Below are positions 3,483 through 24,985 of a stretch of 35,115 nucleotides of DNA, piece by piece. The position numbers and the translations under genes are program-made. Source of the DNA: Parabacteroides sp. (lineage in GTDB: Bacteria; Bacteroidota; Bacteroidia; Bacteroidales; Tannerellaceae); the NCBI GenBank assembly GCA_022775005.1, contig JALFJR010000054.1, positions 1 through 35,115 of the forward strand, read 5' to 3'. Every line of letters begins with the position of its first letter. Within the stretch, counting starts at the first letter, position 1. The notes beneath the pieces were generated by a model. That model did no database searches. It was not told the origin of the DNA and saw only the letters and a program-made list of their open reading frames with translations.

Positions 3483-4370
3483 TCATTTTGCCTCAATCGC
3501 GCTGGATTGGGTGATTTTTGAGAAGGGAGGAACGCTATGTGTAAGCCAGATATTACCGCCAATGATTGAGCCTCGCCCGATGGTAATACGTCCCAAAATA
3601 GAAGCATTGGAATAAATGGTAACATGGTCTTCAATGATCGGATGGCGAGGCAGATCCATTGGTAATCCCTCCTCGTCAAGCGTGAAATTCTTCGCACCTA
3701 AGGTGACTCCTTGGTACAAGCGCACATGGTTGCCAATGATGGTGGTTTGACCAATTACGACTCCAGTTCCATGATCAATGCTGAAGTATTCGCCGATTTG
3801 TGCCCCCGGATGAATGTCGATACCGGTATAGGAATGGGCCATCTCGGTAATGATGCGGGGGATGAGAGGTACTTGCAACTTGAAGAGCTCATGAGCCACT
3901 CGTTGATGCAGGAAGGCAATCATGGCCGGATAGCAGAAGATCACCTCGCTGGCGCTTTTGGCCGCCGGATCGCCATCCAAGATCGCTTTCACATCGGTCG
4001 AGAGCAGATGCTTCACATGGGGTAAACGATCCATGAAATCTAAGGCGATCGCATAGGAGCGGGCTTTGGCTTCTCCGGAGGCCTCTGCGTCGAAACAGAG
4101 TCCGTTGTAGGTCTGCTCTTGCAGTAGGTCATAGATTTGCTCTAAATGAACGCCTGTGTAATAAGACATAGAGCTGTGTCTGGCTTCTCCCGCTTCGCCG
4201 AAAAAACCAGGAAACAGCACGTTTCGTACCAACAGCATCATCTCTTTCAAGGCCGTGATAGAGGGCGAGGGTTTCTGATGCAGCGGAATGTAGGGATAGG
4301 CTGATTCCCCTGCGTCAGATAACCGCTCCACGTTTTGTTGGATGTGCGCTAAAATATCGGCTCGTTTCAT
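3483..4370 (-). CDS. cysE: Serine O-acetyltransferase (CysE/EpsC type)
   Basis: Transfers acetyl from acetyl-CoA to L-serine, giving O-acetylserine, the first step of cysteine synthesis. With the ATG at 4370 (MKRADILAHIQ) it is 295 residues. An all-helical N-terminal domain occupies residues 1-180. A left-handed beta-helix of hexapeptide repeats follows (GIDIHPGAQIG, then SIDHGTGVVIG with the active-site-type His near residue 200, then NHVRLYQGVTLGA). The length and long N-terminal region fit the EpsC-like form. An in-frame TTG five codons upstream exists, but the ATG begins only two bases after the upstream lipoprotein stop and is preferred. It is the last gene of the kinase/phosphatase operon, an unusual place for a housekeeping enzyme. 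Confidence 0.93.
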   Translation of the reverse strand: MKRADILAHIQQNVERLSDAGESAYPYIPLHQKPSPSITALKEMMLLVRNVLFPGFFGEAGEARHSSMSYYTGVHLEQIYDLLQEQTYNGLCFDAEASGEAKARSYAIALDFMDRLPHVKHLLSTDVKAILDGDPAAKSASEVIFCYPAMIAFLHQRVAHELFKLQVPLIPRIITEMAHSYTGIDIHPGAQIGEYFSIDHGTGVVIGQTTIIGNHVRLYQGVTLGAKNFTLDEEGLPMDLPRHPIIEDHVTIYSNASILGRITIGRGSIIGGNIWLTHSVPPFSKITQSSAIEAK

Positions 4371-4372
4371 AA

Positions 4373-6550
4373 TCAATTGTCCCAAACAGGATCATATTTT
4401 AGTAATGTGTTGGATCCGGTTCCTAAGCCGATGTAAATTTTCTCGTTCAGCACAAAAATGCAGTGAAAACTTCGTTGGGCTGTGGAAAGTTGGGTTTTCT
4501 TTTCCCAAATTTTTGTTTGCGTATTGTATCGCCAAATGTATCCATCGGTATCAACTCCATATATATAATAATGGAGTGTAGTTGCTCCTAACAATCCCTT
4601 TCCTGGAAAAGAAGTCTCTTCTTGCCAACTCTCTGCTCCGTCAGTTGACGACCACAGTTTCTGGCTATAGGTAGCACTATTATAATTCCTATTGGTAATG
4701 CCTAATCCTGCGTAAAGTGTATTCTCTATACTTAATGCCACACCCCCAAATTGTGCGATAGGGAAATTAGGCCGTTCAAACCAATTGGACGAGCTGATGT
4801 CGTATGCCCAACCACCAGTAGCAATGCTATCATTTTCTGTACGTCCGCCGATGAGGTATGCAATACCATCTTGTACGCAAGAGGCTGCACGATATAATCC
4901 TTGTGGACGAGTGATTTGGTCTTCTGTTTGGATCTCCCAAAGATTAGAGAGTGTAGAATAGAAATACAGTTCATTAGTGACTCTGCCTGATTCGTCAAGT
5001 CCACCAAAAGCCCACATTCCGAAGCCTTGGCTAAACAGGATCTGTTCACTCAGTGCTTTGGGCTGTGAGCGAAGCTGCATCCATTCGTTTCGTGATCCGG
5101 CGATATATGCCCACAGTTGATTGGAATAAGTGGCTCCATTGTCACCACCTAACAAAATACCTATATTGTTGATTACCGTGAATGCGGTAGAACCTGCCAT
5201 ACGATGACCTCCTTCAAACTCCTCTTTCATAGCTGTAATGATATCAGGCGTTGTAAATGAGATTTCTTCTCCATATTCAGTGCCTTCTTCGTTTGTTGCG
5301 TATGTCCGTAGATAATATGTTGTACCACCACGTAATCCTTCGATTTGTCCAGAAAATAATCCTGCTCCTGATCCTAATGCTTTATGACCAATAGAATTGG
5401 TTAAGTTAACCTGTGGTTTTGTACTCCAACATACACCTGATTCTTTTACTGGAGAGACTCCTTCTGCTAAAACTTCTCCTCCGACTACGATGTAGCCGTC
5501 TTTGATTTGACTAGTACCTACAGTGTCGGTATTCAATGTTGGCAACATGCTAAGTAGGACGGTACGAATGCCAGCTCCATCTGTATAACGGGTACCTATC
5601 GAATTCGTTGCATAACCACGCACATAGTACTCCTTTTGTTGTTCCATTTTGGCTATACGTCCAATAAATGTACCTATTCCATTACCACAGACTACGGTGT
5701 CGTTCTTTTCGATAGTAGGGTATTCACTGTTACTGAAACAAAAGCCCCATTGTGTTACCGGAGAGTCTCCTTCGTTGGTAATTGCCAATTGAAAATCGGC
5801 ATATTGGTAATCTATACTTACAAGCTTAAATTCTTTCTTATCTAAAAAAGGAAGCCCATCTGTTGTTGTAAATGATTCGATTTGTGCACCGTTATAAGTA
5901 CCAAATTTGTTAGCGGCGTATGCGCGCAAGTAATAAGTCGTTTGAGGTTTTAATCCATTAATTGTGCAATAGAAAGAATCTGTTTCCATAGGAATCACAA
6001 TCAAAGAATCTGTATCGGAGGGGGTGGCATTTGTCATCAAATAAATACCTCGTTTTTCTACTGTTGCCTCTCCAGGAGTCGTAATTACACCACCACATTC
6101 AACTTTTGTAGCAAAGATATGGGTTGGTTTTAATGTCTTAACACTGCCTAAGCCATCGGTAGTCTTGAAAGAAAGTACATCTCCAAACGCAGTGTCTATT
6201 TCATTGATAGCAAACGCTTTGATGTAATAATTGTGGTTGGGGATAAGCCCTTCAATGGTTGTCTCGAATTTGGCTTTTCGTTTGGACACAGTTTTCGATT
6301 GTTTTGCTTGGAAAACAAAATCTGCTGTGTTTCCCCAGCAGAAGCCAGACGTAGTTACAGGAGCACCATTTTCCTGCACAACTTCTCCACTTACAGACAC
6401 AGTGGAGGCATTTGAACCTAAAATCTCCAATGTCTCTACGGTTGGTTTCTTTGCGTTTTTTAATCCCCCTTCTATGATTGGGTCTTCAACGCAACCATTC
6501 ATTAATAGGGCGATTCCTAATACTATGCTATATATTTGGTTATATCTCAT
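4373..6550 (-). CDS. Surface lipoprotein with FN3-like repeats and a Kelch-type propeller
   Basis: Predicted lipoprotein of 725 residues, probably exposed on the outer membrane. I chose the ATG at 6550 (MRYNQIYSIV) because it gives a clean SPII signal ending in LMNGC; the ATG at 6589 would put 13 extra residues before it and overlap the previous gene. After the lipobox come four beta-rich repeats of about 95 residues. Each ends in a motif like YYIKAFAINE or YYLRTYATNE and carries a GFCW/GVCW core; they resemble fibronectin type III modules of Bacteroidetes surface proteins. From about residue 440 the protein is Kelch-like, with blades showing GG turns and W residues (AFGGLDESGR, AYLIGGRTEN, WEIQ, WEKKT). 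It follows a predicted outer-membrane barrel and precedes cysE. A binding or sensing role is inferred; the ligand is unknown. Confidence 0.88.
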   Translation of the reverse strand: MRYNQIYSIVLGIALLMNGCVEDPIIEGGLKNAKKPTVETLEILGSNASTVSVSGEVVQENGAPVTTSGFCWGNTADFVFQAKQSKTVSKRKAKFETTIEGLIPNHNYYIKAFAINEIDTAFGDVLSFKTTDGLGSVKTLKPTHIFATKVECGGVITTPGEATVEKRGIYLMTNATPSDTDSLIVIPMETDSFYCTINGLKPQTTYYLRAYAANKFGTYNGAQIESFTTTDGLPFLDKKEFKLVSIDYQYADFQLAITNEGDSPVTQWGFCFSNSEYPTIEKNDTVVCGNGIGTFIGRIAKMEQQKEYYVRGYATNSIGTRYTDGAGIRTVLLSMLPTLNTDTVGTSQIKDGYIVVGGEVLAEGVSPVKESGVCWSTKPQVNLTNSIGHKALGSGAGLFSGQIEGLRGGTTYYLRTYATNEEGTEYGEEISFTTPDIITAMKEEFEGGHRMAGSTAFTVINNIGILLGGDNGATYSNQLWAYIAGSRNEWMQLRSQPKALSEQILFSQGFGMWAFGGLDESGRVTNELYFYSTLSNLWEIQTEDQITRPQGLYRAASCVQDGIAYLIGGRTENDSIATGGWAYDISSSNWFERPNFPIAQFGGVALSIENTLYAGLGITNRNYNSATYSQKLWSSTDGAESWQEETSFPGKGLLGATTLHYYIYGVDTDGYIWRYNTQTKIWEKKTQLSTAQRSFHCIFVLNEKIYIGLGTGSNTLLKYDPVWDN

Positions 6551-6563
6551 GAGAAATATAAGT

Positions 6564-7541
6564 TTAAAAGAAAATACCGATACCGGCATTTAAATCCATG
6601 TATTTAAAGTTAATGGTGCTACACCCAGCGCTAAGGAAGAAGTGTGAACCAAATTTAACCATGGCATCTACCTCACCTGCCACACCTTCATAAGAAGAAT
6701 CTACATTTTTGCACCAAAGCTCTCGGCTCTGCTCGTATTGCTCATAGCTATGTGTTGTAAATGAGTACAGAAGCACTCGTTGTCCGTATCCAACACCGGC
6801 AGATACATAGAGCCAAGGAGCACATTTTATGACCAGACCAGCTGTTCCTGAGAAAGTGTTTTTTTTGGCTTTTTGTGAGGGCGTTAATGCGTATGACTCG
6901 TTGCTCGAACCAGAGAAATTGATGATTTCTCCTTTGTCATTGCAGAGGTCAGAATAGTCGTGGAAAGACATGTTAGTCTTAAAGCGTACGTACCATCCGA
7001 TGCGGGAGCCTACGCCTCCAAAAGTCAATCCATAGGGCGCCTCGATTGAGAAGGCATAGCCAACGAAGAACTCCATGCGTTGATGAGGGGAAGTGATCGC
7101 TATCGTATCAACGATGTGTTGTTCAGGTGTGGGAGGTGCTAACAAGTTTTGCTGATAGGTTTGCCAATAAGAAGCTAATTCTTCACTTTTTGGTGTACCG
7201 ATACCCTCTGTGTAATAGGTGATCAATAAAGCGATCGCATCTAAATCCTCTTCTGTCGCTTTTACGGAAAGACAATTTAGACATTTGGTCATCAAACTGC
7301 GCATAGAGGGACGCATTTGCTCATTTGATAGCCAAATAGAGGTCAGCTGGTTAATGCTATAGGAGTCGCAATCAGCTACACCTTCTTCGTACCACATTTT
7401 TGCATCGCTATAATCTTGTCTTTTCATCGCCTCGTCTCCCTTTCGGTTGTACTCCGTACGTTGTTGTGACCAAAGTGCAAAAGGAAAAAAGATGCAGATA
7501 AGTCCTATCCAAATTCTTCTCATTACTAGATTGTTATTCAT
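6564..7541 (-). CDS. Predicted outer-membrane beta-barrel protein with N-terminal TPR-like segment
   Basis: Unrecognised family, 325 residues. A Sec signal peptide (MRRIWIGLICIFFPFALWSQ, from the second Met; the ATG at 7541 adds six residues) leads into a TPR-like helical pair around residues 30-57 (GDEAMKRQDYSDAKMWYEEG). A helical middle follows, then from about residue 160 alternating amphipathic strands rich in Gly and aromatics. The protein ends in GIGIFF. A terminal Phe is the usual sorting signal of outer-membrane barrels, so a small barrel of perhaps eight strands is inferred. It starts four bases after the kinase stop and ends just before the Kelch lipoprotein start, placing it as a possible envelope partner of both. 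Confidence 0.85.
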   Translation of the reverse strand: MNNNLVMRRIWIGLICIFFPFALWSQQRTEYNRKGDEAMKRQDYSDAKMWYEEGVADCDSYSINQLTSIWLSNEQMRPSMRSLMTKCLNCLSVKATEEDLDAIALLITYYTEGIGTPKSEELASYWQTYQQNLLAPPTPEQHIVDTIAITSPHQRMEFFVGYAFSIEAPYGLTFGGVGSRIGWYVRFKTNMSFHDYSDLCNDKGEIINFSGSSNESYALTPSQKAKKNTFSGTAGLVIKCAPWLYVSAGVGYGQRVLLYSFTTHSYEQYEQSRELWCKNVDSSYEGVAGEVDAMVKFGSHFFLSAGCSTINFKYMDLNAGIGIFF

Positions 7542-7545
7542 TCTG

Positions 7546-9387
7546 TTAATAATAGCTCAAGCCTTCTCCTACTAATATGCCCTCCGTGTTATATATGTCG
7601 AACAGATTATCCGGTCGTTCGAAAGCACGGCCCTGCTCTGCAATACCTACGCTAATGTATTTGCAGGGAATACGTTCTTCACCCTTCGTATCAATTGCTC
7701 CATATTTATTATTCGCTTTTTTTCGAACGATCTTGTATCGGCCAAAAGCCATTTTCTCTTCATATTGTGCTAATCTGTCGGTTATTTGTTTTTGTTCGGC
7801 TTGTTCATCGCATTGGATGAGTAACCGTACAACCTCCTCTGTCAGTTTAGTCTCTTTTGCTTGGGTTAAATCTGTTTTTGCGCCGGCAAAATCTGCTTTC
7901 GCTAATTTCTCCTTACCCGATTGTAACAATGTTTGGTATTGATTCTCCACATTTATAGATGGCTGAATAGGCTTGCTGTCTAACGGCTTGGAGGGGGGAG
8001 TTGCCTGTTGTTTTTCTTCCTGTTGTGAAAGCGTATTCACTGTCGAAGAAGGGGTGGAGATTTCTGCCTCTTGGGTGTGAGGAACAGATTCCTTATCTAT
8101 GGACTCACCTTTCACATCTTCCTCTTCTGCTTGTATTTGCACCTCTTTTTTAGAGATGGTTGATAGGGATTCTGAGGAAATGTTCCCTTCTTGTAAAGAG
8201 GTGGATTTGTCGTTAATCTCCGTATGCTCACGTTGCCAGAAAATTGTGAAAGCTGCACTAACCAATGCTACGAACCCAATCAGCATAGCCGTGATTCGTT
8301 TGATGCGAGAAGGATTGGCTGATTGAGCCGATATTTGCTTCTCTTGGGATTGTGCGGAAGGTGTGGCAACCATTGTCTCTTCCCCATCCAATGGGAGGGA
8401 AAATTGACTGTTCCTTTGATAGACAAGGGTCGTCTCCTCTTCTGTGGGCGAAGTGGTAGCTGACGCTGCGGGAAGCAGGGGATTGAATGTTGTCTGAGGT
8501 AACTTGCTCAAGAGTTCTTTGATAGACGCATACCGATCTGTAGGGATGATTTGCATGGCTCTTAGGATCACTGCCTCCGTTTGCTCGCTAATTGCCGGAT
8601 TCAATTCACGAGGGCGTTTGAGTGGACGAGTTGCCCGCAGGATTGATTCCGTGGGAATTTTACCTGTGAGCAAGTTGTAGATGGTTGCACCTAATGAATA
8701 GATGTCCGGACCAGGAGAGAACTGCTGTATGCCCTCATTGTCATACTGCTCGATAGCTGCAAAACCCTTAGAAAGGGTGAGCATGGTTGTGCTTGTTTCC
8801 TCTTGCTCAATATCATATCGTTTCGATACGCCAAAATCAATCAAGCGGGCGTTACCGTTTTTGTCGATCAAGATGTTGCTGGGTTTGATATCAAGATGAA
8901 GGATGTTTTTCTCATGAACAAACTGTAATGCTTCACCGATTTGACGGATATAATACAATACTTGATTCTCAGGTAAAATTCCCTCTTTCTCCAAAAGAGA
9001 CTTGAGTGAATAGCCGTCGATATACTCCATGGCTATATAGGCTGTGTTATGTTCCTCAAAAACTTCTAACACATTGACTATATAGGGGTGGTGTACTTCT
9101 GAGAGGATACGTGCCTCTTTGATCAGTTTTTCTTTGAATTTATCGAAGAGCTGTTTGCCTGTCTCTGAATGGACACGCACAGCTAACGTGTCAGGGTCAC
9201 GATAGCAATAATCTTTGAAAAAATACTCTTTGATGCAAATGGGTACTTCTGTCTTAACGGTGCCTAACGGCCCTTTTACTTCCGTGAACCAGATACCCTT
9301 ATAGGTTATACCAAACCCACCTTGCCCAACTACATGGGTAAGCCTATATTTCCCATTTTGAAGAAGATGTTCGTTTGGCAAATTCAT
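7546..9387 (-). CDS. Hanks-type Ser/Thr protein kinase with one membrane segment and WG-repeat tail
   Basis: Protein kinase of 613 residues. The N-terminal kinase domain (about residues 12-300) has all key elements: Gly loop GQGGFG (21-26), ATP-anchoring Lys53, helix C Glu91, catalytic loop HLDIKPSN (H164, D166, K168, N171) and metal-binding DFG (D184). A low-complexity Ser/Thr/Glu linker follows, then one membrane helix at about 365-385 and a charged region. The last 70 residues look like one and a half WG repeats (KYGAIDTKGEERIPCKY). The kinase should be cytoplasmic and the tail periplasmic. PP2C, FHA and LytTR genes lie directly upstream, and envelope genes follow after four bases. This is a typical kinase/phosphatase pair; the WG tail instead of PASTA repeats is notable. 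Confidence 0.95.
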   Translation of the reverse strand: MNLPNEHLLQNGKYRLTHVVGQGGFGITYKGIWFTEVKGPLGTVKTEVPICIKEYFFKDYCYRDPDTLAVRVHSETGKQLFDKFKEKLIKEARILSEVHHPYIVNVLEVFEEHNTAYIAMEYIDGYSLKSLLEKEGILPENQVLYYIRQIGEALQFVHEKNILHLDIKPSNILIDKNGNARLIDFGVSKRYDIEQEETSTTMLTLSKGFAAIEQYDNEGIQQFSPGPDIYSLGATIYNLLTGKIPTESILRATRPLKRPRELNPAISEQTEAVILRAMQIIPTDRYASIKELLSKLPQTTFNPLLPAASATTSPTEEETTLVYQRNSQFSLPLDGEETMVATPSAQSQEKQISAQSANPSRIKRITAMLIGFVALVSAAFTIFWQREHTEINDKSTSLQEGNISSESLSTISKKEVQIQAEEEDVKGESIDKESVPHTQEAEISTPSSTVNTLSQQEEKQQATPPSKPLDSKPIQPSINVENQYQTLLQSGKEKLAKADFAGAKTDLTQAKETKLTEEVVRLLIQCDEQAEQKQITDRLAQYEEKMAFGRYKIVRKKANNKYGAIDTKGEERIPCKYISVGIAEQGRAFERPDNLFDIYNTEGILVGEGLSYY

Positions 9388-9434
9388 ACTTCGTTGTATT
9401 TAACTTCTGTTTTAATCTGCCAAAGATAATTCTT

Positions 9435-10241
9435 TTAAGCTAAAGAGTAAAGAAAAGAAAGAAGATTTTGTTTTAAACGTGTTGTCCCTTCTGTTCTTCG
9501 TAAGGGTATTAAATAGAAAGAGTAGTTGTCACGTGTCTTGCCTTCACAAATTTCCAATAGATTCTCTTTGATTTCTATAGGATTATGTGCATTGCTGAAT
9601 AATTGTAGGAGTTGCTTGTCATCCATACGCTCCAATGCGCCGTCGCTGCATAAAAAGAGCCAGTCTCCGGTTTGAATATCCTGCCATTGAATGACTTCGG
9701 CCTCAGTAGGAATATGACTTCCTTGGATAGCCCGCAGAATAAGATTGCGTTGAGGATGGATCCGAGCTTCAGCGGGAGTGATACGCCCCAAACGCACCAA
9801 AGAATTCACTAATGAATGATCTTCTGAACGATAAAGTGCTTTCCCTTTGCGGATATAATATATCCGGCTATCGCCAATGTGGGCTAAAGTTAAACTCTTT
9901 TTACCTATGTAGGCCAACGTCAAGGTAGTGGCCATGCCTGTTGCTTCTGGATGTTCTTGTAAATAGGAGTCAAAGCGTGTCTCTGTGTAATGAACAGCTT
10001 GTTGGATAAACTCGACAGAAGGATCCTCGTTCCCTAAAAAGGTGGTGAAATAAGTTTGTAAGGCGTCACATGCCAATGCGCTTGCTATCTCGCCACGCTC
10101 TGCGCCTCCGACTCCATCGCACACTAGAAAGAGTCGCTGACTACTTTCTGTATATTCTGACGATGGATAGATGCAATCCTCATTGTTTGCTCTACCACCC
10201 TTTTCACAAACTGCACAAGGTTTACCAATCGTTATCATCAC
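9435..10241 (-). CDS. PP2C-family Ser/Thr protein phosphatase
   Basis: Metal-dependent phosphatase of 268 residues that probably reverses the action of the downstream kinase. PP2C motifs appear in the usual order: NED at the N-terminus (residues 20-22), CDGVGGAERG (41-50), GMATTLT, HIGDSRIYYI, FLCSDGALERM and the closing RDNYSF. All metal-ligand aspartates expected for the family are present. It is cytoplasmic, with no signal peptide or membrane segment. The gene lies 47 bases upstream of the kinase and 11 bases downstream of the zinc-ribbon FHA gene. The protein is about the size of stand-alone bacterial PP2Cs such as PppA or Stp1. Confidence 0.95.
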   Translation of the reverse strand: MMITIGKPCAVCEKGGRANNEDCIYPSSEYTESSQRLFLVCDGVGGAERGEIASALACDALQTYFTTFLGNEDPSVEFIQQAVHYTETRFDSYLQEHPEATGMATTLTLAYIGKKSLTLAHIGDSRIYYIRKGKALYRSEDHSLVNSLVRLGRITPAEARIHPQRNLILRAIQGSHIPTEAEVIQWQDIQTGDWLFLCSDGALERMDDKQLLQLFSNAHNPIEIKENLLEICEGKTRDNYSFYLIPLRRTEGTTRLKQNLLSFLYSLA

Positions 10242-10252
10242 AAAACCAGCAT

Positions 10253-10768
10253 TTAATCATTAAAACGGATCACGGTATGTCCTAAGATAATTTCATCGTT
10301 ATCATTGAGGACAACCACCTCTCCGTCTCCCAGGTAATTGTTATTATACAACGTATGATTTTTGCTGTTATTGTCAGAAAGATAATGTTTATAGCCTCCT
10401 TTGCCATCTTTTTTTACTTCAATGACAGCATGCTCTCGACTCATTGTTCGATCACCTGTCTGAATGGGGAGAGAGGCTTTGGATGCATTTGATTTACGTC
10501 CGATTATGAGCGTCCCTTCATGCAAGGAGAGATGCTGCTCTGGTGTATTCTCATCAGGTAATACAGTCAATCGCCCTATATCTGTCTTCAAAGGGTGAAT
10601 CAAAATGGTGTCAGGATCATTGTTTCCTTCTCTGTTGCCAGCTGAGAGCAAAGATATCGGAATAGCCCCTTTGCACTTGGGGCATTTGAAAGAGGTAAGA
10701 CCGAGGGGAATCTTCCCCTCGTCCACCTTCAATCCAATTAGGCAATGTGGACATTTAATGGCTATCAT
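10253..10768 (-). CDS. Zinc-ribbon FHA-domain protein
   Basis: A 171-residue phosphothreonine-binding adaptor. The N-terminus is a zinc ribbon with two CxxC pairs (C6, C9, C29, C32). An acidic linker leads to an FHA domain from about residue 84: GTLIIGRKSN, then MSREHAVIEV with the phosphate-binding Ser110, Arg111 and His113, then SKNHTLYNN in the place of the usual NGT loop, ending in LGHTVIRFND. Its start overlaps the stop of the acidic-protein gene by four bases (ATGA), which implies translational coupling. Partner and phospho-target are unknown; by family knowledge it should bind a threonine phosphorylated by the operon kinase. Confidence 0.92.
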   Translation of the reverse strand: MIAIKCPHCLIGLKVDEGKIPLGLTSFKCPKCKGAIPISLLSAGNREGNNDPDTILIHPLKTDIGRLTVLPDENTPEQHLSLHEGTLIIGRKSNASKASLPIQTGDRTMSREHAVIEVKKDGKGGYKHYLSDNNSKNHTLYNNNYLGDGEVVVLNDNDEIILGHTVIRFND

Positions 10769-11019
10769 ACGATAAACGTAATGTCAGCGTCATACATGTC
10801 CGTTGCAGTCATGTCCAACGTATCAACGTCGGAAAGCATTACCGTATCGTCAGCCAATGTGATAAAATCCTGATGATCAACTTCTACAAAGTCCATGTCT
10901 TCAACAATGATCGCTTCGCTTAAATCTACATCCAGATTATCCACATCAACGAGCACGGCATCTGCGGGCATGGCATCATTGCCATCTAACGTCACAAATG
11001 TGTACTCTTCTTCTTGCAT
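10765..11019 (-). CDS. Small acidic protein lacking Lys and Arg
   Basis: Unrecognised 84-residue protein. By my count it has about 19 Asp and 6 Glu but no Lys or Arg at all, giving a strongly negative charge. The sequence is a loose repeat of short hydrophobic-acidic phrases (VLVDVDNLDVDLSEAIIVED, then DFVEVDHQDFITLADD, then VMLSDVDTLDMTATDMYDAD), as if short beta-strands each ended in Asp. There are many Thr residues next to acids, which could be kinase targets. It overlaps the next gene by four bases and sits between two FHA genes. I regard it as real because of the coupling and operon position. Its function is unknown; a phospho-acceptor, FHA ligand or metal-binding role is only speculation. 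Confidence 0.75.
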   Translation of the reverse strand: MQEEEYTFVTLDGNDAMPADAVLVDVDNLDVDLSEAIIVEDMDFVEVDHQDFITLADDTVMLSDVDTLDMTATDMYDADITFIV

Positions 11020-11059
11020 AACCCTTGCTTTTAAATGTTTAAACTAATTGAATCCGCAA

Positions 11060-11067
11060 CAAAAGTA
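11060..11067 (-). promoter_or_regulatory. Possible internal promoter before the acidic-protein gene
   Basis: The only sizeable gap within the signalling run (11020-11160) carries TACTTTTG on the minus strand, an exact match to the Bacteroides -7 consensus. It lies about 40 bases upstream of the acidic-protein start. No good -33 TTTG sits 19-21 bases further upstream, so this is a moderate call. It would allow the acidic protein, FHA, phosphatase and kinase to be expressed apart from the LytTR gene. Confidence 0.45.
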
Positions 11068-11160
11068 GTAAATGCTGTGGATTATGCTATCGAAGAGGAA
11101 ACCTTGCAATCCAACGTCAGAATTTACTGTACAAACAGATAGGTTTTAATGAACAAGCGT

Positions 11161-11823
11161 TCATTTGTCTGCGTCTTTTGCCCATTTTGCTTGACAAGAG
11201 GAGATCGGGCACTTCTTTCGATTGAGCAATGACTCCCATGGTATCTCTCCCAAGAAAGTCCCGCATTTCGGGCAGACATAATCAATCTTGAATTGGTTGG
11301 CTAATGCCTGTAGCAGCATTGGGATCTTAGAGGCCTGTTTGGCTCCTAAATAGATGCCAACTGTTGGTGCTACAATCGTAATGAACAGGCTCAAAATTAA
11401 TAATGTCGAGTTTCCTTTGCCGAAGAAGCCAACAACAACACCGATCACACCTGGTAATGCGAAAGGTAGAGATTGCATCAAACGTGTTTTGAATTGGTTG
11501 GATGATTGAATTCGCACCTTCTCTTGGATGTAATGATCATAGACTACTTTCAGTTGAGCAAACTCTTCGCTATAATCGTTCCCGGCCTTTAGTAGATCGG
11601 AGAGCGTTAATGTATATCGCTCTCCTAAACGAATTCGGTCACTCTTCGAGATGCGTTTACGAACTACCTGTGCCTCATTCACAAAAGTCCCATTGGTTGA
11701 TTCCAGATCTTCCAATAACCAATTGCCGTCTGGCTCAGAGACTAGACGAGCATGATGCCGACTAACTTGCGAATCATCAGCAACGTAATCATTGTCGTTG
11801 GCTTTGCCTATAGTAATGATCAT
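11161..11823 (-). CDS. FHA-domain membrane protein with C-terminal zinc ribbon
   Basis: A 220-residue protein with three parts. The FHA domain (1-75) shows SRHHARLV (21-28) and the classical STNGTFVN loop (42-49), so phosphothreonine binding looks intact. A charged helical linker (80-115) leads to two membrane segments (about 118-133 and 140-160, LLILSLFITIVAPTVGIYLG). The C-terminus has a zinc-ribbon-like set, CPKCG near 184 and CPISSC near 205. Both ends should be cytoplasmic. It follows the LytTR gene by 12 bases. It may recruit phosphorylated proteins to the inner membrane near the kinase. The FHA and zinc-ribbon pairing is shared with the other FHA gene in the operon, but in reverse order. 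Confidence 0.92.
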   Translation of the reverse strand: MIITIGKANDNDYVADDSQVSRHHARLVSEPDGNWLLEDLESTNGTFVNEAQVVRKRISKSDRIRLGERYTLTLSDLLKAGNDYSEEFAQLKVVYDHYIQEKVRIQSSNQFKTRLMQSLPFALPGVIGVVVGFFGKGNSTLLILSLFITIVAPTVGIYLGAKQASKIPMLLQALANQFKIDYVCPKCGTFLGEIPWESLLNRKKCPISSCQAKWAKDADK

Positions 11824-11835
11824 TACGTTTTCTCC

Positions 11836-12225
11836 TTACTTGGATTCACCATCTGTTGAGGCTTTTCCCATCTCTTTCTCCAAAGTCTCTTTCAGCACTT
11901 TCAATGGATCTTTTGAGATGACTACCTCTTTAGCTTTACCCTCTTCGGTCAGCAGTAGCAGGCGTTGTTTAGGAAGATTAATTTGCAAGATATGGTTTTT
12001 GTTGATGATATGGCTCTTACCTACACGCATCAAGATCTTCCCGACACCTTCTACCTGCTTGCCCAAAATCTCCTCAATTTTACCAATGTTGATTGCGAAC
12101 GTAAATTGGATTCCACTGGAAAGCAGTAACTTTGTGTAGTTTCGATCTGCTTCAAAATAAAGAATTTGTCCAATTCGGATTCTAAGTAATTCGTCCCTGG
12201 TTTTTATGATTAGATATCTATCCAT
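11836..12225 (-). CDS. LytTR-domain DNA-binding protein (stand-alone)
   Basis: A 129-residue protein consisting of a LytTR DNA-binding domain and a short charged tail. Typical LytTR phrases are present: IGQILYFEADRNYTKLLL, a basic strand near FAINIGKIEEIL, and MRVGKSHIINKNHILQIN. No receiver domain or membrane segment is attached, unlike most LytTR response regulators, so it probably senses through partners or abundance. It is the first gene of the kinase/phosphatase operon and has a consensus promoter 40 bases upstream, so it may regulate its own operon. The Lys-rich C-terminus with Thr and Ser residues could be a kinase substrate; that is speculation. Confidence 0.9.
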   Translation of the reverse strand: MDRYLIIKTRDELLRIRIGQILYFEADRNYTKLLLSSGIQFTFAINIGKIEEILGKQVEGVGKILMRVGKSHIINKNHILQINLPKQRLLLLTEEGKAKEVVISKDPLKVLKETLEKEMGKASTDGESK

Positions 12226-12264
12226 TTTTGGTAGTGTTTTGCAAATAGTCTCTTTTTACAGTTG

Positions 12265-12272
12265 CAAAGGTA
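12265..12272 (-). promoter_or_regulatory. Promoter -7 box of the LytTR-kinase operon
   Basis: TACCTTTG on the minus strand matches TAnnTTTG exactly and is followed by GCA, a common context. A TTTG lies 15 bases upstream (12288-12291), closer than the usual 19-21. The leader before the LytTR gene would be about 35-40 bases. It probably starts the long operon down to cysE. Confidence 0.6.
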
Positions 12273-12329
12273 CGTTCTTTTGTATTTCAAACCTAATTTT
12301 GTGGATAGAAATTATTTTATGGGTAAAAC

Positions 12330-12360
12330 AAACCCCTCAGGATAAATCTCTGAAGGGTTT
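12330..12360 (-). terminator. Rho-independent terminator after the M28 peptidase gene
   Basis: An 11-bp stem with one mismatch (AAACCCCTCAG against CTGAAGGGTTT, loop of nine) is followed on the minus strand by a T-rich run. It lies 27 bases beyond the peptidase stop and isolates that gene from the LytTR operon promoter. Confidence 0.8.
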
Positions 12361-12386
12361 GACTCTAAAATTAGGTATTTGTGGGC

Positions 12387-14483
12387 TTATTCTACTAATC
12401 CGGCCTCTTTGAGCATGTCAATGAAACGAGTGATATCTGTTAAGCTATCAGCGTCGGGGAACTGTGCGTCTTGCATTTTCTTTATGTCTAAAATGCTAAG
12501 TTTACCAGAAGTGGTTAGCTTTGCGATGTCATCACTATGCGCAAGAGATAGTCGAGCACTTCCTCCGTTGATTAACTGATATTTGGCGATCAATTCTTTT
12601 GGAATATTGCGCAGTACGCCATAGCCTGTCTCCTTAACTTTGGCTGTTGCATGTGGAAAGACCTTCGCTGCTGCTTTTTCCTCTGCAGTCAGTTCCACTC
12701 GCTTAGGTGCGGTGATGCCCAACAGGGTTGCACGAGCCTTCATAGCTGCGTCAATCTCTTTGCTGTTGCTCTGCGCCTTCTCGTTTATAAGTGATTGTAA
12801 CGTGGCAATATGTGCTTTCAAGACCGTGCTGTTTGGAGCTAATTCCAGCACACTTTCCAGTGTGGCCTGTTCGTTGAGCAATAGAGCATCTTGATCAAAA
12901 TGTGCCTTCTTATAGGCGGCTGGCAGTTGATTTGCAGCTGCCTGTGCTAAAGCAGAGAGATCTTCTGCGGCTTTCAATGAAAGACGTTTGGTTGAGCCGG
13001 CAGATACCTCGCTGGCAATAGCTAAGGCCACTTGCTCGTCAGCAGCTGCGATGGTGTATGCTGTAGCAGCTGCCAGGACAATGGCACGATGCAACTGTGT
13101 CGGGTCGCAAATAGAAGGGCGGTCACCAGAGGTGTGGTAATAATTGTCTGGCCAGGTGATCATGATCACGGCTGGTACCTGTACACCCCAATCGTTCAAC
13201 ACTTCATGATCGGAAGCGCCATAGTGGGCGTTGATTGCATAGTAGAAAGGATCTTGTGAGCCGGTTAAACTATAGACCGGCTTTAAAGCTTCGGGGCGTC
13301 CTACGCCGGTAGCAACAAATGATTTGTTGGTCGCACCCATATAGTGGTAGAATGATTCTGCTACGTCATTCAAGTAGTGGGGGTTACCCATTGTTGTGCG
13401 ATGTAGGCAATAGTAAGAGCCACTCTTGCTGAGCCATAGGCCGACCATATCTAAGTTAATACCGCAGAGCGTGCGATTCAGGATCTCTTTGTGCTGCGTA
13501 GCCCAAGGGATGGAACCTTGAAACTCAGGAACCCAAAGAAAGCGCAGGCTTCGTTTTGGGCGGGGTAGTCGGCCGCTCTCGAACAGTTCATTCAAGGTGC
13601 GTGCTACCTCTATCAGGGCTGCTGCCCCTGAGATGTTATCGTTGGCTCCTAACTTTACATAACCTTCAAACAGATGTGCAGTGAAGATTACCTCCTCGGC
13701 ATTTGGATCTGTACCGGGGATGACGCAAGTGGGTACCTCTAAATCTGTATCCTCCTCAGTCGTTTCAACTTTGGCATGTACAGTGATTTTCTCACCCTTG
13801 AGCAGACGATCTCGCAAAGCGTATCCATCTCTTGGAGTCAAGTTGAAACAGAATGTGGGGTTCTCGCTGCGGATGCCACTGTTCGGGATTTGGAGCGGAT
13901 CAATCAAAGGGCGAGGTCCATAGAAGCTGATCACGCCCAGGGCACCGGCAGCAACAGCCTTATCGTGTACACGTGAAGCGGCAGCTTCCGTCACGGCGAT
14001 CTTCCCTTTCAGATCAACGGCGGCCAGCTCATGTGCCTCTCCTCGGCCAATCCAGGCTAATTGAGCGGTCACGTCTGCGCTTTTGCTCCCTTGTCCCAAA
14101 ATGGCGGCTAAATCTTGATAGTCTGCTATCTTGACTTGTTTGGGAGAGACTTCCCAAAGCGAGGCACTCACACCATCCCATGTCTTTGTCTTGCCTACCT
14201 CCTCGATGGTGGCATTAGCGATGCCGAAACGCTTCAACTGAGCCACTACATATTCCGACTCCATGAAATGTCCTTGGTAGTCGGCGTGTTGACGATCTCG
14301 CTCATAGGGAGCAATGTCCATGATGTAATTGAAGGCACGATCGCCCGATGATTCACCGACCAGTTGGTCGTAATAGGCCTCTGGAAGCAGGCAATGATTG
14401 AAGGGGGTCGTGTAATTCTGACCCGAGGCAATCGTGGAGAGACAAGCTGCTCCGACGATGCACGCATGTTTGAATAGTTTCAT
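12387..14483 (-). CDS. Exported M28-family metallopeptidase with PA-like insert
   Basis: A 698-residue secreted zinc peptidase-like protein. A signal peptide ends near residue 21 (CLSTIASGQ). Residues 100-250 contain a PA-like beta domain (AWIGRGEAHELAAVDLKGKI). The M28 core gives probable metal ligands H270, D282 (GANDNISGAAAL), E320 (FLWVPEFQGS), D345 (INLDMVG) and H450 (DNYYHTSGD). The first motif reads HLFEG, not the usual HxD, and the usual Glu pair is PEF, so the catalytic site departs from typical M28 aminopeptidases. The C-terminal 230 residues are helical and not recognised. The gene lies 49 bases after the LysE-type gene with no clear promoter between, so co-transcription is likely. 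Periplasmic or surface peptide cleavage is inferred; activity is uncertain. Confidence 0.9.
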   Translation of the reverse strand: MKLFKHACIVGAACLSTIASGQNYTTPFNHCLLPEAYYDQLVGESSGDRAFNYIMDIAPYERDRQHADYQGHFMESEYVVAQLKRFGIANATIEEVGKTKTWDGVSASLWEVSPKQVKIADYQDLAAILGQGSKSADVTAQLAWIGRGEAHELAAVDLKGKIAVTEAAASRVHDKAVAAGALGVISFYGPRPLIDPLQIPNSGIRSENPTFCFNLTPRDGYALRDRLLKGEKITVHAKVETTEEDTDLEVPTCVIPGTDPNAEEVIFTAHLFEGYVKLGANDNISGAAALIEVARTLNELFESGRLPRPKRSLRFLWVPEFQGSIPWATQHKEILNRTLCGINLDMVGLWLSKSGSYYCLHRTTMGNPHYLNDVAESFYHYMGATNKSFVATGVGRPEALKPVYSLTGSQDPFYYAINAHYGASDHEVLNDWGVQVPAVIMITWPDNYYHTSGDRPSICDPTQLHRAIVLAAATAYTIAAADEQVALAIASEVSAGSTKRLSLKAAEDLSALAQAAANQLPAAYKKAHFDQDALLLNEQATLESVLELAPNSTVLKAHIATLQSLINEKAQSNSKEIDAAMKARATLLGITAPKRVELTAEEKAAAKVFPHATAKVKETGYGVLRNIPKELIAKYQLINGGSARLSLAHSDDIAKLTTSGKLSILDIKKMQDAQFPDADSLTDITRFIDMLKEAGLVE

Positions 14484-22468: not shown

Positions 22469-24985
22469 CTATGCCTGCTCATCCGGCTGCCCCTCGGGTT
22501 GGCCCTCCGGGTTCTCCACCTGCTCCTCCTCGCTCTCCGAGAGCACCTTGCAGACGGAGGCGATCTCGTCGTTGCGCTTCTCTAAGTTGATCAGGCGCAC
22601 GCCCTGCGTAGCCCGTCCGATCACGTTCAGATCGGCCACGTTGAGGCGGATCGTGATGCCCGACTTGTTGATGATCATCAAGTCGTTCTCGTCGGTGACG
22701 TTCTTGATCGCCACGAGCTTGCCCGTCTTCTCGGTGATGTTGATGGTCTTCACGCCCTTGCCGCCTCGGTTGGTGATGCGGTAGTCGTCGATCGACGAGC
22801 GCTTGCCATAGCCCTGCTCCGAAACGACCAGCACGGTCTCCTTCTCCTTGTCCTTGATGCAGATCATGCCTACCACCTCGTCTGAGCCGTCCTCGTCGAG
22901 CGTCATGCCACGCACGCCGGTGGCGGTACGTCCCATCTCACGCACGGTGCTCTCGTGGAAGCGGATCGCCCGCCCGTTGCGGTTGGCGATGATCACCTCG
23001 TTGTCGCCGTTGGTCATGCAGACCTGGATCAATCCATCGTCCTCACGCAGCGAGATGGCGTTCACGCCGTCTCGGCGAGGCCGTGAGTAGGCCTCTAACA
23101 GCGTCTTCTTGATGATGCCTCGCTTGGTGCAGAAGAGCAGGTAGTGCGAGTTGATGAACTCCGTGTCTCTCGTCAGGTTCTTCACGCGGATAAAGGCCTG
23201 GATCTTGTCGTCCGCCTCAATGTTGAGCAGGTTCTGGATGGCGCGCCCCTTGGCGTTCTTCGCCCCCTCGGGAATCTCATACACCTTCAGCCAGTAGCAG
23301 CGCCCCTTCGCGGTGAAGAAGAGCAGCGTGGCATGCATGGAGGCGGGGTAGATATATTCCACGAAGTCCTCGTCGCGGGTCTCCGATCCCTTGACGCCTA
23401 CGCCCCCTCGGCCCTGCGCACGGAACTCGCTGAGCGGTGTCCGCTTGATGTAGCCCATGTGCGAGAGGGTGATGATCATCTCGTCGTCGGAATAGAAATC
23501 CTCCGGGTTCAGCTCCTCCGAGGCATAGACGATGTCGGTCTTGCGCTCGTCGCCCCATTTGGCCTTGATCTCCAGCAGCTCGTCTTTGATTACCTTCATG
23601 CAAAGATCGTCGTTGGATAAGATTTCCTTCAAGTAGTTGATCAACTTCTCGATCTCCTCATACTCGGCGCGCAGCTTGTCTTGCTCCAGCCCTGTCAGCT
23701 GGCGCAGGCGCATCTCCACGATGGCCCGGGCCTGGACGTCGGAGAGCGAGAAGCGCTCCTTCAGCCGATCGATAGCCTCCTGCGGGCTCTTGGATGCCTT
23801 GATGATGGCGATCACCTCGTCGATGTTGTCGGAGGCGATGATCAATCCCTCCAGGATGTGGGCCCGCTCCTCCGCCTTGCGCAGGTCGAACTTCGTACGG
23901 CGAATCACCACCTCGTGGCGATGATCCACGAATGCCTTGATCAAATCCTTCAGGTTGAGCAGCTTGGGCCGCCCGTCCACCAAGGCGATATTGTTGACGC
24001 TGAACGATGACTGCAGCGCCGTCATTTTATACAGTTTGTTGAGCACCACGCTGGCGTTGGCGTCGCGCTTCACATCGACGACGATGCGCATACCCTGGCG
24101 GTCGGTCTCGTCGTTGACGTTGGAGATGCCCTCTAATCGCTTCTCGTTCACTAAGTTGGCGATGTCTTTGATCAGCTCCGCCTTGTTCACGCCATAGGGG
24201 ATCTCGCTGATCACGATCTTCTCGTGGCTGTTTTCCACCTCGATCTCCGCCTTGCCCCGGATCACGATGCGCCCGCGACCGGTCTCGAAGGCCTCTTTCA
24301 CGCCCCCGTAGCCATAGATCGTGCCTCCCGTCGGGAAGTCGGGGGCCTTGATGAACTGCATCAGCCCCGTCACGTCGATATCGCCCTTGGTGTCGATGTA
24401 GGCCACGCAGCCGTCGAGCACCTCGCTCAGGTTGTGGGTCGGCATATTGGTCGCCATGCCGACGGCGATACCCGAGGCTCCGTTCACCAGCAGGTTCGGG
24501 ATGCGGGTAGGCAGCACGGTCGGCTCCTTCAACGTATCATCAAAGTTCAATTGGAAGTCAACGGTCTCCTTGTCGATGTCGCGCAGCATCTCCTCGGCCA
24601 GCTTGCTCAGGCGCGCCTCAGTGTAACGCATCGCTGCGGGGCTGTCGCCATCCACGGAGCCGAAGTTTCCTTGTCCATCCACCAAGCAATAACGCATGGC
24701 CCACTTTTGCGCCATACGCACCATGGCGAAATAGACAGAAGAGTCGCCGTGCGGGTGGTACTTACCGAGCACCTCGCCGACGATTCTCGCAGACTTTTTA
24801 TAAGGTTTGTCGGAGGTATTACCCAGTTCGTTCATACCGAATAATATGCGGCGATGAACCGGCTTAAAACCATCCCTAACATCGGGAAGGGCACGAGAAA
24901 CAATGACCGACATTGAATAATCAATGTAGGCGGTTTTCATCTCCTCTTCAATGTTAATCTTTATAATTCTGTCTTGATCAATCAT
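22469..24985 (-). CDS. gyrA: DNA gyrase subunit A
   Basis: Breakage-reunion subunit of DNA gyrase, 838 residues. The catalytic Tyr is Y121 ([10 protein letters not shown]). The quinolone-determining region reads [18 protein letters not shown]82, equal to E. coli Ser83, is the sensitive-type Ser, while the site of E. coli Asp87 is Phe86. The conserved [20 protein letters not shown] follows. The C-terminal six-bladed wheel has the GyrA box in the form TNRGGKG. The tail is acidic and Pro/Gly/Gln-rich ([20 protein letters not shown]). The start at ATG 24985 ([11 protein letters not shown]) is standard. It is the last core gene before the accessory module to its right. Confidence 0.98.

Follow-up and report, generated by a model that had tools for sequence, protein, structure and literature searches.

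A Hanks-type kinase, PP2C and FHA operon with a LytTR regulator in Tannerellaceae: a possible phosphothreonine relay to an internal promoter

Signalling systems and the Parabacteroides locus

The PknB-GarA and OdhI signalling of actinobacteria combines a membrane-bound Hanks-type kinase, a PP2C phosphatase and FHA proteins. We analysed a variant of such signalling, encoded by an eight-gene operon (LytTR-FHA1-ACID-ZFHA-PP2C-KIN-OMP-KELCH; 4373-12225, minus strand) in a 35,115-bp stretch of Parabacteroides sp. DNA ("the window": GCA_022775005.1, contig JALFJR010000054.1, positions 1 to 35,115). Its parts are of known kinds, and the combination appears to add a transcription branch to Hanks kinase/PP2C/FHA signalling. 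Comparison of the sequences leads us to propose, tentatively and with somewhat less than even confidence, a phosphothreonine relay from the envelope to one dedicated promoter, in which LytTR and FHA1 would activate the remaining genes in response to threonine phosphorylation by the kinase. Unlike PknB-GarA/OdhI, the operon lacks a PASTA sensor (no Pfam PASTA match in KIN; NF033483 189 bits, cut-off 450), and it adds a zinc ribbon to each FHA protein, together with an acidic partner, the LytTR regulator and outer membrane proteins. The acidic threonine motif beside the FHA domain of ZFHA presumably resembles the ETTS switch of GarA.

The transcription branch is reminiscent of the LytTR regulatory systems (LRS; HdrRM, BrsRM), which, in the consulted part of PMC6193735, are described as a receiver-less LytTR regulator followed by a membrane protein, with 9-bp direct repeats, mostly with 12-bp spacers, just above promoters. 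Our locus exhibits the same regulator type and gene succession and a 9-12-9 repeat above a promoter of the same locus. However, its membrane protein is of the FHA-transmembrane-zinc ribbon type, and the locus additionally encodes a kinase, PP2C, ZFHA and envelope proteins. The LRS-like operons of Bacteroides covered in that part of the source are of another build (NfeD/DUF2154).

The association of a kinase, PP2C and an FHA reader is also characteristic of the threonine-phosphorylation pathway of type VI secretion systems (T6SS; PpkA-PppA-Fha; PMC3953482, consulted in part), to which the operon adds a transcription regulator and envelope proteins. PP2C is likewise found with Ser/Thr kinase and FHA in the KKP module (according to the part of PMC11341870 considered here); in KKP however PP2C is followed by two kinases, FHA is fused to a kinase and the module is prophage-borne, whereas here a single kinase and separate FHA proteins belong to a conserved operon. 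A viral origin was rejected, the kinase having found no match when viral contigs were scanned. GAP1-N2 GTPase-centric conflict systems, as presented in the consulted section of PMC7159879, also place a kinase beside PP2C, but vWA and GTPase are not among the nine genes of 3483-12225 (the operon and an adjoining cysE). A relationship to TerY-type triads, in which a vWA protein accompanies kinase and PP2C, was not retained, with no vWA match in a search that covered the nine genes and the upstream M28 gene, and not the whole genome. A table row of a 2005 survey gives 2 kinases for Bacteroides thetaiotaomicron (PMC1262709, that table only), and our search of open-licence papers on Ser/Thr kinase signalling in this part of Bacteroidota did not find the gene set described.

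The eight-gene operon and its conservation

All nine ORFs (open reading frames) that the initial annotation had listed as a one-strand run at 3483-12225 were recovered on the minus strand, and matches to Pfam and other models agreed with the domains claimed for them. The host genome is 3.14 Mb long (109 contigs, 97.9% complete), and orthologous loci of named genomes assign the window to Parabacteroides (Tannerellaceae). The operon encodes the following proteins:

11836-12225, minus strand: LytTR, stand-alone LytTR DNA-binding protein of 129 aa with no receiver domain (PF04397, 6.4e-10, its sole match above cut-off)
11161-11823, minus strand: FHA1, FHA domain (PF00498, 1.1e-19), hydrophobic membrane segments around residues 115-160 (by hydropathy), C-terminal zinc ribbon
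10765-11019, minus strand: ACID, acidic protein of 84 aa with a net charge of -25 and predicted disorder; EEYTFV (Thr7) and DDTVM (Thr59) are candidate phosphosites
10253-10768, minus strand: ZFHA, N-terminal zinc ribbon, linker and FHA domain (PF00498, 7.3e-13)
9435-10241, minus strand: PP2C phosphatase (PF13672, PP2C_2, 7.6e-16; Stp1-like, 1.4e-50, below its cut-off)
7546-9387, minus strand: KIN, cytoplasmic Hanks-type kinase (PF00069, 3.6e-42), single transmembrane segment around residues 365-383 (by hydropathy), predicted periplasmic C-terminus
6564-7541, minus strand: OMP, N-terminal TPR/Sel1-like helices and an OmpA/OmpX-like beta barrel
4373-6589, minus strand: KELCH, FN3-like repeats and a kelch propeller in a predicted lipoprotein, whose likely lipobox has Cys-V-E-D-P

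Conservation was assessed in two sets of loci, which share assemblies and are not independent: the family-genome set, i.e. 60 other loci with a kinase orthologue (window excluded), annotated with profiles built from the family, and the named-genome set, i.e. 64 loci (L139-L202) with an orthologous kinase among the best 80 loci of a collection scan. A kinase match at E <= 1e-10 was found in 62/70 family genomes (own included); since G040 contains only diverged kinases, the orthologue is present in 61/70. The kinase search in 47 other genomes of the order revealed no match better than 6.7e-48. All eight genes occur in order in 46/60 family-genome and 43/64 named-genome loci, which makes the operon a conserved module and not a single-strain oddity, as the initial annotation had supposed; its conservation across Bacteroidales at large was however not borne out, as none of the genomes searched outside Tannerellaceae had the exact operon, with a looser core of patchy distribution elsewhere. 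Contig ends account for 8 of the 14 incomplete family-genome loci and split kinase frames for 2; the remaining 4 (L050, L062, L063, L089) retain kinase-OMP-kelch only. The first five genes are missing from the named-genome loci L146, L184 and L199 and the last two from L201, while 17 others are affected by a contig end or split frame; in L152 an 880-aa gene is inserted after ZFHA. The arrangement of L050, L146, L184 and L199 suggests that the kinase, the TPR-barrel protein and the kelch lipoprotein may work as a unit.

FHA1 directly follows LytTR in all 53 named-genome loci that have LytTR, which suggests a tie between the two. LytTR itself shows 64-98% identity in 50 family-genome loci (77-88% in 45 of these), and FHA1 conserves its Cys, SRH and NG residues. 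The catalytic motifs of protein kinases and the metal-binding motifs of PP2C phosphatases have well-established roles. KIN keeps Lys53, Glu91, His164-x-Asp166, Asn171 and Asp184-Phe-Gly, with the catalytic residues invariant in 20 aligned rows, and PP2C, inspected by eye, keeps the metal-binding Asp motifs. The zinc ribbon of ZFHA gives matches (and an MJ0042 motif) below cut-off, but its CxxC pairs are conserved. ACID belongs to no Pfam family; blastp matches in 52 family-genome loci and its presence in most named-genome loci nonetheless indicate a conserved gene. It is probably disordered, as judged from its AlphaFold2 model (mean pLDDT 53), which was too poor for a fold search.

The barrel of OMP is matched weakly (2e-4, below cut-off), as are its Sel1 repeats; its AlphaFold2 model (pLDDT 93) nevertheless combines a helical N-terminus with a barrel, and Foldseek reported small Ail/OmpX/OmpA-type barrels as the best matches (E 2e-6, target-normalised TM ~0.5). 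An acidic residue at position +3 of KELCH in 30/55 proteins, as located with a crude Cys caller, is at most suggestive of a surface-export signal. The C-terminus of KIN contains a weak WG repeat (0.0014, below cut-off).

Two promoters, a direct repeat and a threonine motif

Two promoter-like sites, P1 and P2, and a repeat were identified in the non-coding sequence, the promoter boxes being called with what we take to be the Bacteroides-type consensus (-7/-33):

12265-12272, minus strand: -7 box of P1, TACCTTTG, upstream of LytTR, Bacteroides type, no GTACA repeat
11107-11136, minus strand: putative binding site of LytTR in the FHA1-ACID gap, a pair of 9-bp direct repeats separated by 12 bp
11060-11067, minus strand: -7 box of P2, TACTTTTG, internal promoter with no -33 box, 65 bp below GTACA

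The FHA1-ACID gap (11020-11160, 141 bases), whose length had been correctly noted before, is the sole long intergenic gap of the run and is kept as a gap in the relatives (median 135, range 68-261 in 54 named-genome loci). GTACA is present in 55/55 of these gaps, the window included (6.8 in shuffles), as part of the layout TTTNGTACA-N12-second half, and the identity of the half-sites peaks at a period of 21 (5.4/9, compared with at most 3.53 for the other periods from 10 to 32). The -7 pattern TAnnTTTG occurs in 53/54 gaps (7.3 in shuffles) and upstream of LytTR in 53/53 named-genome loci (7.6 in shuffles); a -33 TTTG at the usual spacing accompanies P1 in 24/52 cases but P2 in just 3/54. GTACA lies 65/66 bp from the -7 box in 42/54 loci and 76/77 bp in 8/54 (the other four at 39 and 97/98), and since the two main distances differ by one helical turn, the spacing seems to vary in helical steps. 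A 9-12-9 repeat just above a promoter is the architecture of a LytTR site; in contrast to the LRS described in the consulted part of PMC6193735, it is located at the internal promoter and not above the regulator, where GTACA is found in merely 5/53 regions. An LRS is further characterised by a membrane protein that inhibits the regulator and by positive autoregulation via a repeat immediately upstream of the regulator's own operon promoter. The same gap of L203, a cluster in a Prevotellaceae metagenome-assembled genome, contains CTTCGTCAA-N12-CTTCGTCCA (as good in only 1/200 shuffles), and its distance to a -7 box is again 65 bp. The promoter logic, with a LytTR-type repeat and a P2 that has no -33 box, is well supported, and the link from regulator to envelope posited by the initial annotation takes a concrete form, as the repeat stands above a second promoter reading ACID through KELCH. 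Binding of LytTR to the repeat would follow from this arrangement.

One can also imagine LytTR as a simple autoregulator that acts on P2 and determines the dosage of the operon, while the phosphorylation branch acts post-translationally on the envelope with no feedback on LytTR. We regard this as unlikely, albeit the strongest of the alternatives. It would agree with the result that, in the 3.14 Mb of the genome, nothing but the site in the operon matches the search pattern at <=1 mismatch, although this pattern was fitted to Parabacteroides and looser sites could escape it, and with the lack of a LytTR gene in the fetched stretch of 6/9 clusters from other families; it is at odds with the tie suggested by the invariant succession of LytTR and FHA1. 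A wider LytTR regulon was sought and rejected: at <=3 mismatches, 22+15 matches compared with 23+15 in the control allow no claim.

The coding sequences contain a recurrent acidic-Thr-hydrophobic motif, for which the window provides three candidate sites in linkers:

8422-8442, minus strand: candidate phosphothreonine motif EEETTLV (Thr319/320) in the juxtamembrane linker of KIN
8365-8385, minus strand: candidate phosphothreonine motif GEETMVA (Thr338), second site in the KIN linker
10598-10612, minus strand: candidate phosphothreonine motif DTILI (Thr54) in the ZFHA linker

The KIN linker, from the kinase domain to the transmembrane segment, is poorly conserved save for these acidic-Thr-hydrophobic stretches. 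The pattern [DE].?[DE]T[ILVMT][ILVM], picked after inspection of the sequences and compared with residue shuffles, was found in 30/60 KIN linkers (1.0 in shuffles) and 29/56 ZFHA linkers (0.4), while the controls gave 1/60 for the periplasmic linker (1.7) and 0/53 for FHA1 (0.2). A plainer first pattern, [DE][DE]T.[ILVM], also matched 30/60 KIN linkers (2.3 in shuffles), its serine version 1/60 and its basic version 0/60. Among the six cytoplasmic proteins of the window the motif occurs twice in KIN and once each in ZFHA and ACID (Thr59); LytTR, FHA1 and PP2C have none. The diverged kinase of L203 carries EETKV, EETKI and EETRI in a row, and a related motif was counted, with no shuffle comparison, in 8/19 diverged kinase ORFs. 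The longer acidic proteins that replace ACID in diverged clusters (see below) have a related motif in the first 60 residues in 9/19 cases (0.42 in shuffles; the L233 protein is cut at the start), and EEYTFV near the N-terminus of ACID is like those of many of them. It seems plausible that the kinase phosphorylates the threonines of these motifs and that the FHA domains dock on them.

On this basis we suggest the following course of events. P1 would drive LytTR and the membrane protein FHA1; LytTR would bind the 9-12-9 repeat and activate P2, a promoter with no -33 box of its own, which would be read through ACID, ZFHA, PP2C, KIN, OMP (the TPR-barrel protein) and the KELCH lipoprotein. The periplasmic part of KIN would sense the state of the envelope, probably together with the TPR-barrel and lipoprotein partners, and the kinase would phosphorylate the acidic-Thr-hydrophobic motifs in its own juxtamembrane linker, in the ZFHA linker and probably in ACID. 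FHA1 and ZFHA would then dock on the phosphorylated threonines, and docking of FHA1 would shift LytTR between a membrane-held and a free state in the manner of an LRS, thereby setting the activity of P2, while PP2C would reset the relay. Phosphorylation would in this way close the loop. The functional link between LytTR and FHA1 is the weakest part of the relay; most speculative are the role of FHA1 as a phosphothreonine-gated holder of LytTR, which we suggest by analogy, and the transfer of an envelope signal via the KIN C-terminus, OMP and the kelch lipoprotein.

Alternatively, the kinase could phosphorylate LytTR itself and alter its DNA binding, with FHA1 and ZFHA merely serving as scaffolds for the kinase and its substrates. 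ComE belongs to the LytTR family. According to the consulted part of PMC6010298, StkP phosphorylates the response regulator ComE at Thr128 and raises its DNA affinity; besides this precedent, the LytTR gene here shares an operon with a kinase. On the other hand, the LytTR of the window contains no counterpart of the motif seen in KIN, ZFHA and ACID, and the pairing of LytTR with FHA1 in gene order would be left unexplained; this explanation too appears unlikely.

The looser core, its meaning and the neighbouring genes

The kinase, PP2C, the two FHA proteins and a longer acidic partner make up a looser core that recurs patchily in Bacteroidota. The FHA1 profile, whose rows derive from Tannerellaceae and three diverged clusters, matched 29/296 genomes of the phylum, mostly through the FHA domain alone, and 21/247 genomes of the order at 1e-10. 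In nine genomes of the order outside the family the match covered 116 or more of the 217 positions, reaching beyond the FHA domain; each of these genomes also matches ZFHA, in eight on the same contig (the ninth, G544, is at a contig end), and their fetched stretches contain PP2C in 8/9 and the kinase in 8/9 cases, i.e. the FHA genes do not occur mostly apart from the kinase/phosphatase pair. The longer acidic protein found in place of ACID shows the conserved block SFxEAF..AR..VGxGGxFxWxGxxYxTY together with a hydrophobic segment rich in Gly and a tail rich in Asp. Its profile (eight rows) matched 4/296 phylum and 10/247 order genomes, the own genome being counted in both. All five places from the phylum sample, the own one among them, had served as rows of the profile itself; ZFHA lies within 1 kb in three of them, and weak or eye-called ZFHA genes accompany G306:C40 and G365:C1. 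Among the ten places in the order outside the profile, the acidic partner is located <=1 kb upstream of ZFHA in nine, while the contig of G421:C33 has none.

Several observations weigh against the relay. LytTR was found in just 3/9 clusters of other families of the order (one of them weak), which does not fit a universal role. The kinase can evidently exist without the other five genes, as L146, L184 and L199 keep kinase-OMP-kelch alone despite at least 4.8 kb of upstream sequence. The repeat above the kinase of L066 was equalled by 28/200 shuffles, and no notable repeat was found in the diverged clusters L064 and L068. Half of the KIN linkers have no match to the threonine motif, as do the N-termini of 10/19 long acidic proteins; several Tannerella rows have another residue in place of Thr7 of ACID; the plainer [DE][DE]T.[ILVM] matched just 6/56 ZFHA linkers (0.7 in shuffles), and a control pattern with a polar residue at +2 was also somewhat raised in the KIN linker (13/60 compared with 7.8). 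All enrichments are moreover inflated, as the sequences are related, the shuffle nulls simple and the motif patterns post hoc.

We read 22 diverged loci (L064, L066, L068, L130-L133, L136, L203 and L229-L241) and found secreted caspase-like proteins encoded inside the clusters of eight (L064, L132, L136, L231, L232, L233, L236 and L240); Pfam confirmed Peptidase C14 in L064, L231, L232 and L236, and the other four were called by eye. It could be argued that the operon, as its caspase-bearing relatives might, functions in defence or cell death, which we consider very unlikely. This notion draws on the caspase-like genes, on PADLOC matches of the kinase to many defence-kinase models and of PP2C to one, and on the KKP precedent (PMC11341870, again in the part considered). 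Yet the presence of the kinase orthologue in 61 of the 70 family genomes is more like that of a core gene than of a defence island, no protease gene occurs in the operon, and PADLOC, in a scan that left out ACID, gave no match for LytTR, FHA1, ZFHA, OMP or kelch. Finally, that the operon could be the threonine-phosphorylation switch of a T6SS is practically negligible, despite the shared kinase, PP2C and FHA trio (PMC3953482, consulted part) and the occurrence of PpkA among the solved relatives of the kinase, as the VipB profile found no sheath gene in the 97.9%-complete own genome (the control matched E. coli only, so that the reach into Bacteroidota sheaths is unproven) and the nine genes encode neither secretion components nor a vWA domain, as first noticed; of the kinship to that switch drawn earlier, a likeness in working is what stands.

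Further clusters were observed during these searches. Contig 97 of the own genome (L068, 15501-35500) encodes another such cluster, diverged and arranged as LytTR-FHA1-kinase ... acidic-ZFHA-PP2C; small secreted proteins, in duplicate, and a 241-aa protein are encoded in between. The cluster of L203 is followed, at 9200-13562, by a further kinase, another gene and a fusion between PP2C and a multi-pass membrane region (RodA/FtsW-like by eye). A stand-alone ZFHA gene family with no kinase exists, also in other Bacteroidales: in its loci L129, L134 and L135 no kinase or phosphatase was called, and in L134 and L135 the gene adjoins one beginning with MIKLAQHIE or MIELAQHIE. The member of the own genome (contig 43, L129, 1841-2359), on a 9.4-kb contig with no kinase, PP2C or FHA1, was rejected as part of the same system and assigned to this separate family.

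The neighbourhood beyond the eight genes varies between loci. The ninth gene of the run is the following:

3483-4385, minus strand: cysE (CysE model, 2.5e-45, below its cut-off)

It adjoins KELCH in just 30/64 named-genome loci; in the rest, another gene takes its place (21), the contig has no kelch gene (9) or a contig end is near (4). We therefore restrict the unit to the eight genes of 4373-12225 and reject cysE, counted as a member in the initial annotation, as a frequent neighbour only. An M28 peptidase gene and a hydrogenase-like gene, present in the fetched stretch of 1/60 and 16/60 family-genome loci, were likewise rejected; the M28, LysE-like and SpoIID-like genes of the window are shared only with its closest relative, L070 (1/60). 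ARAGORN reported a tRNA with a four-base anticodon (gctc) at 23905-23990, minus strand, within a long ORF on the same strand, which is probably spurious.

A broader and rather doubtful proposal is that one repeated phosphothreonine motif may bind together the gene products of a core that would extend throughout Bacteroidota, with the acidic partner as a phospho-scaffold beside the membrane FHA-zinc ribbon protein, the zinc ribbon-FHA protein, PP2C and kinase, and which in Tannerellaceae would act as an envelope-stress circuit where phosphothreonine controls LytTR via a membrane partner, and which in relatives would control caspase-like proteases. For gut commensals such as Parabacteroides, the operon offers one tractable locus with named candidate substrates, a promoter and a candidate site that can serve as a reporter. 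If the relay is true, it may represent a phosphothreonine-gated LytTR switch. Given the relatives that encode caspase-like proteases, one may ask whether cell death in other members of the phylum is governed by the same relay.

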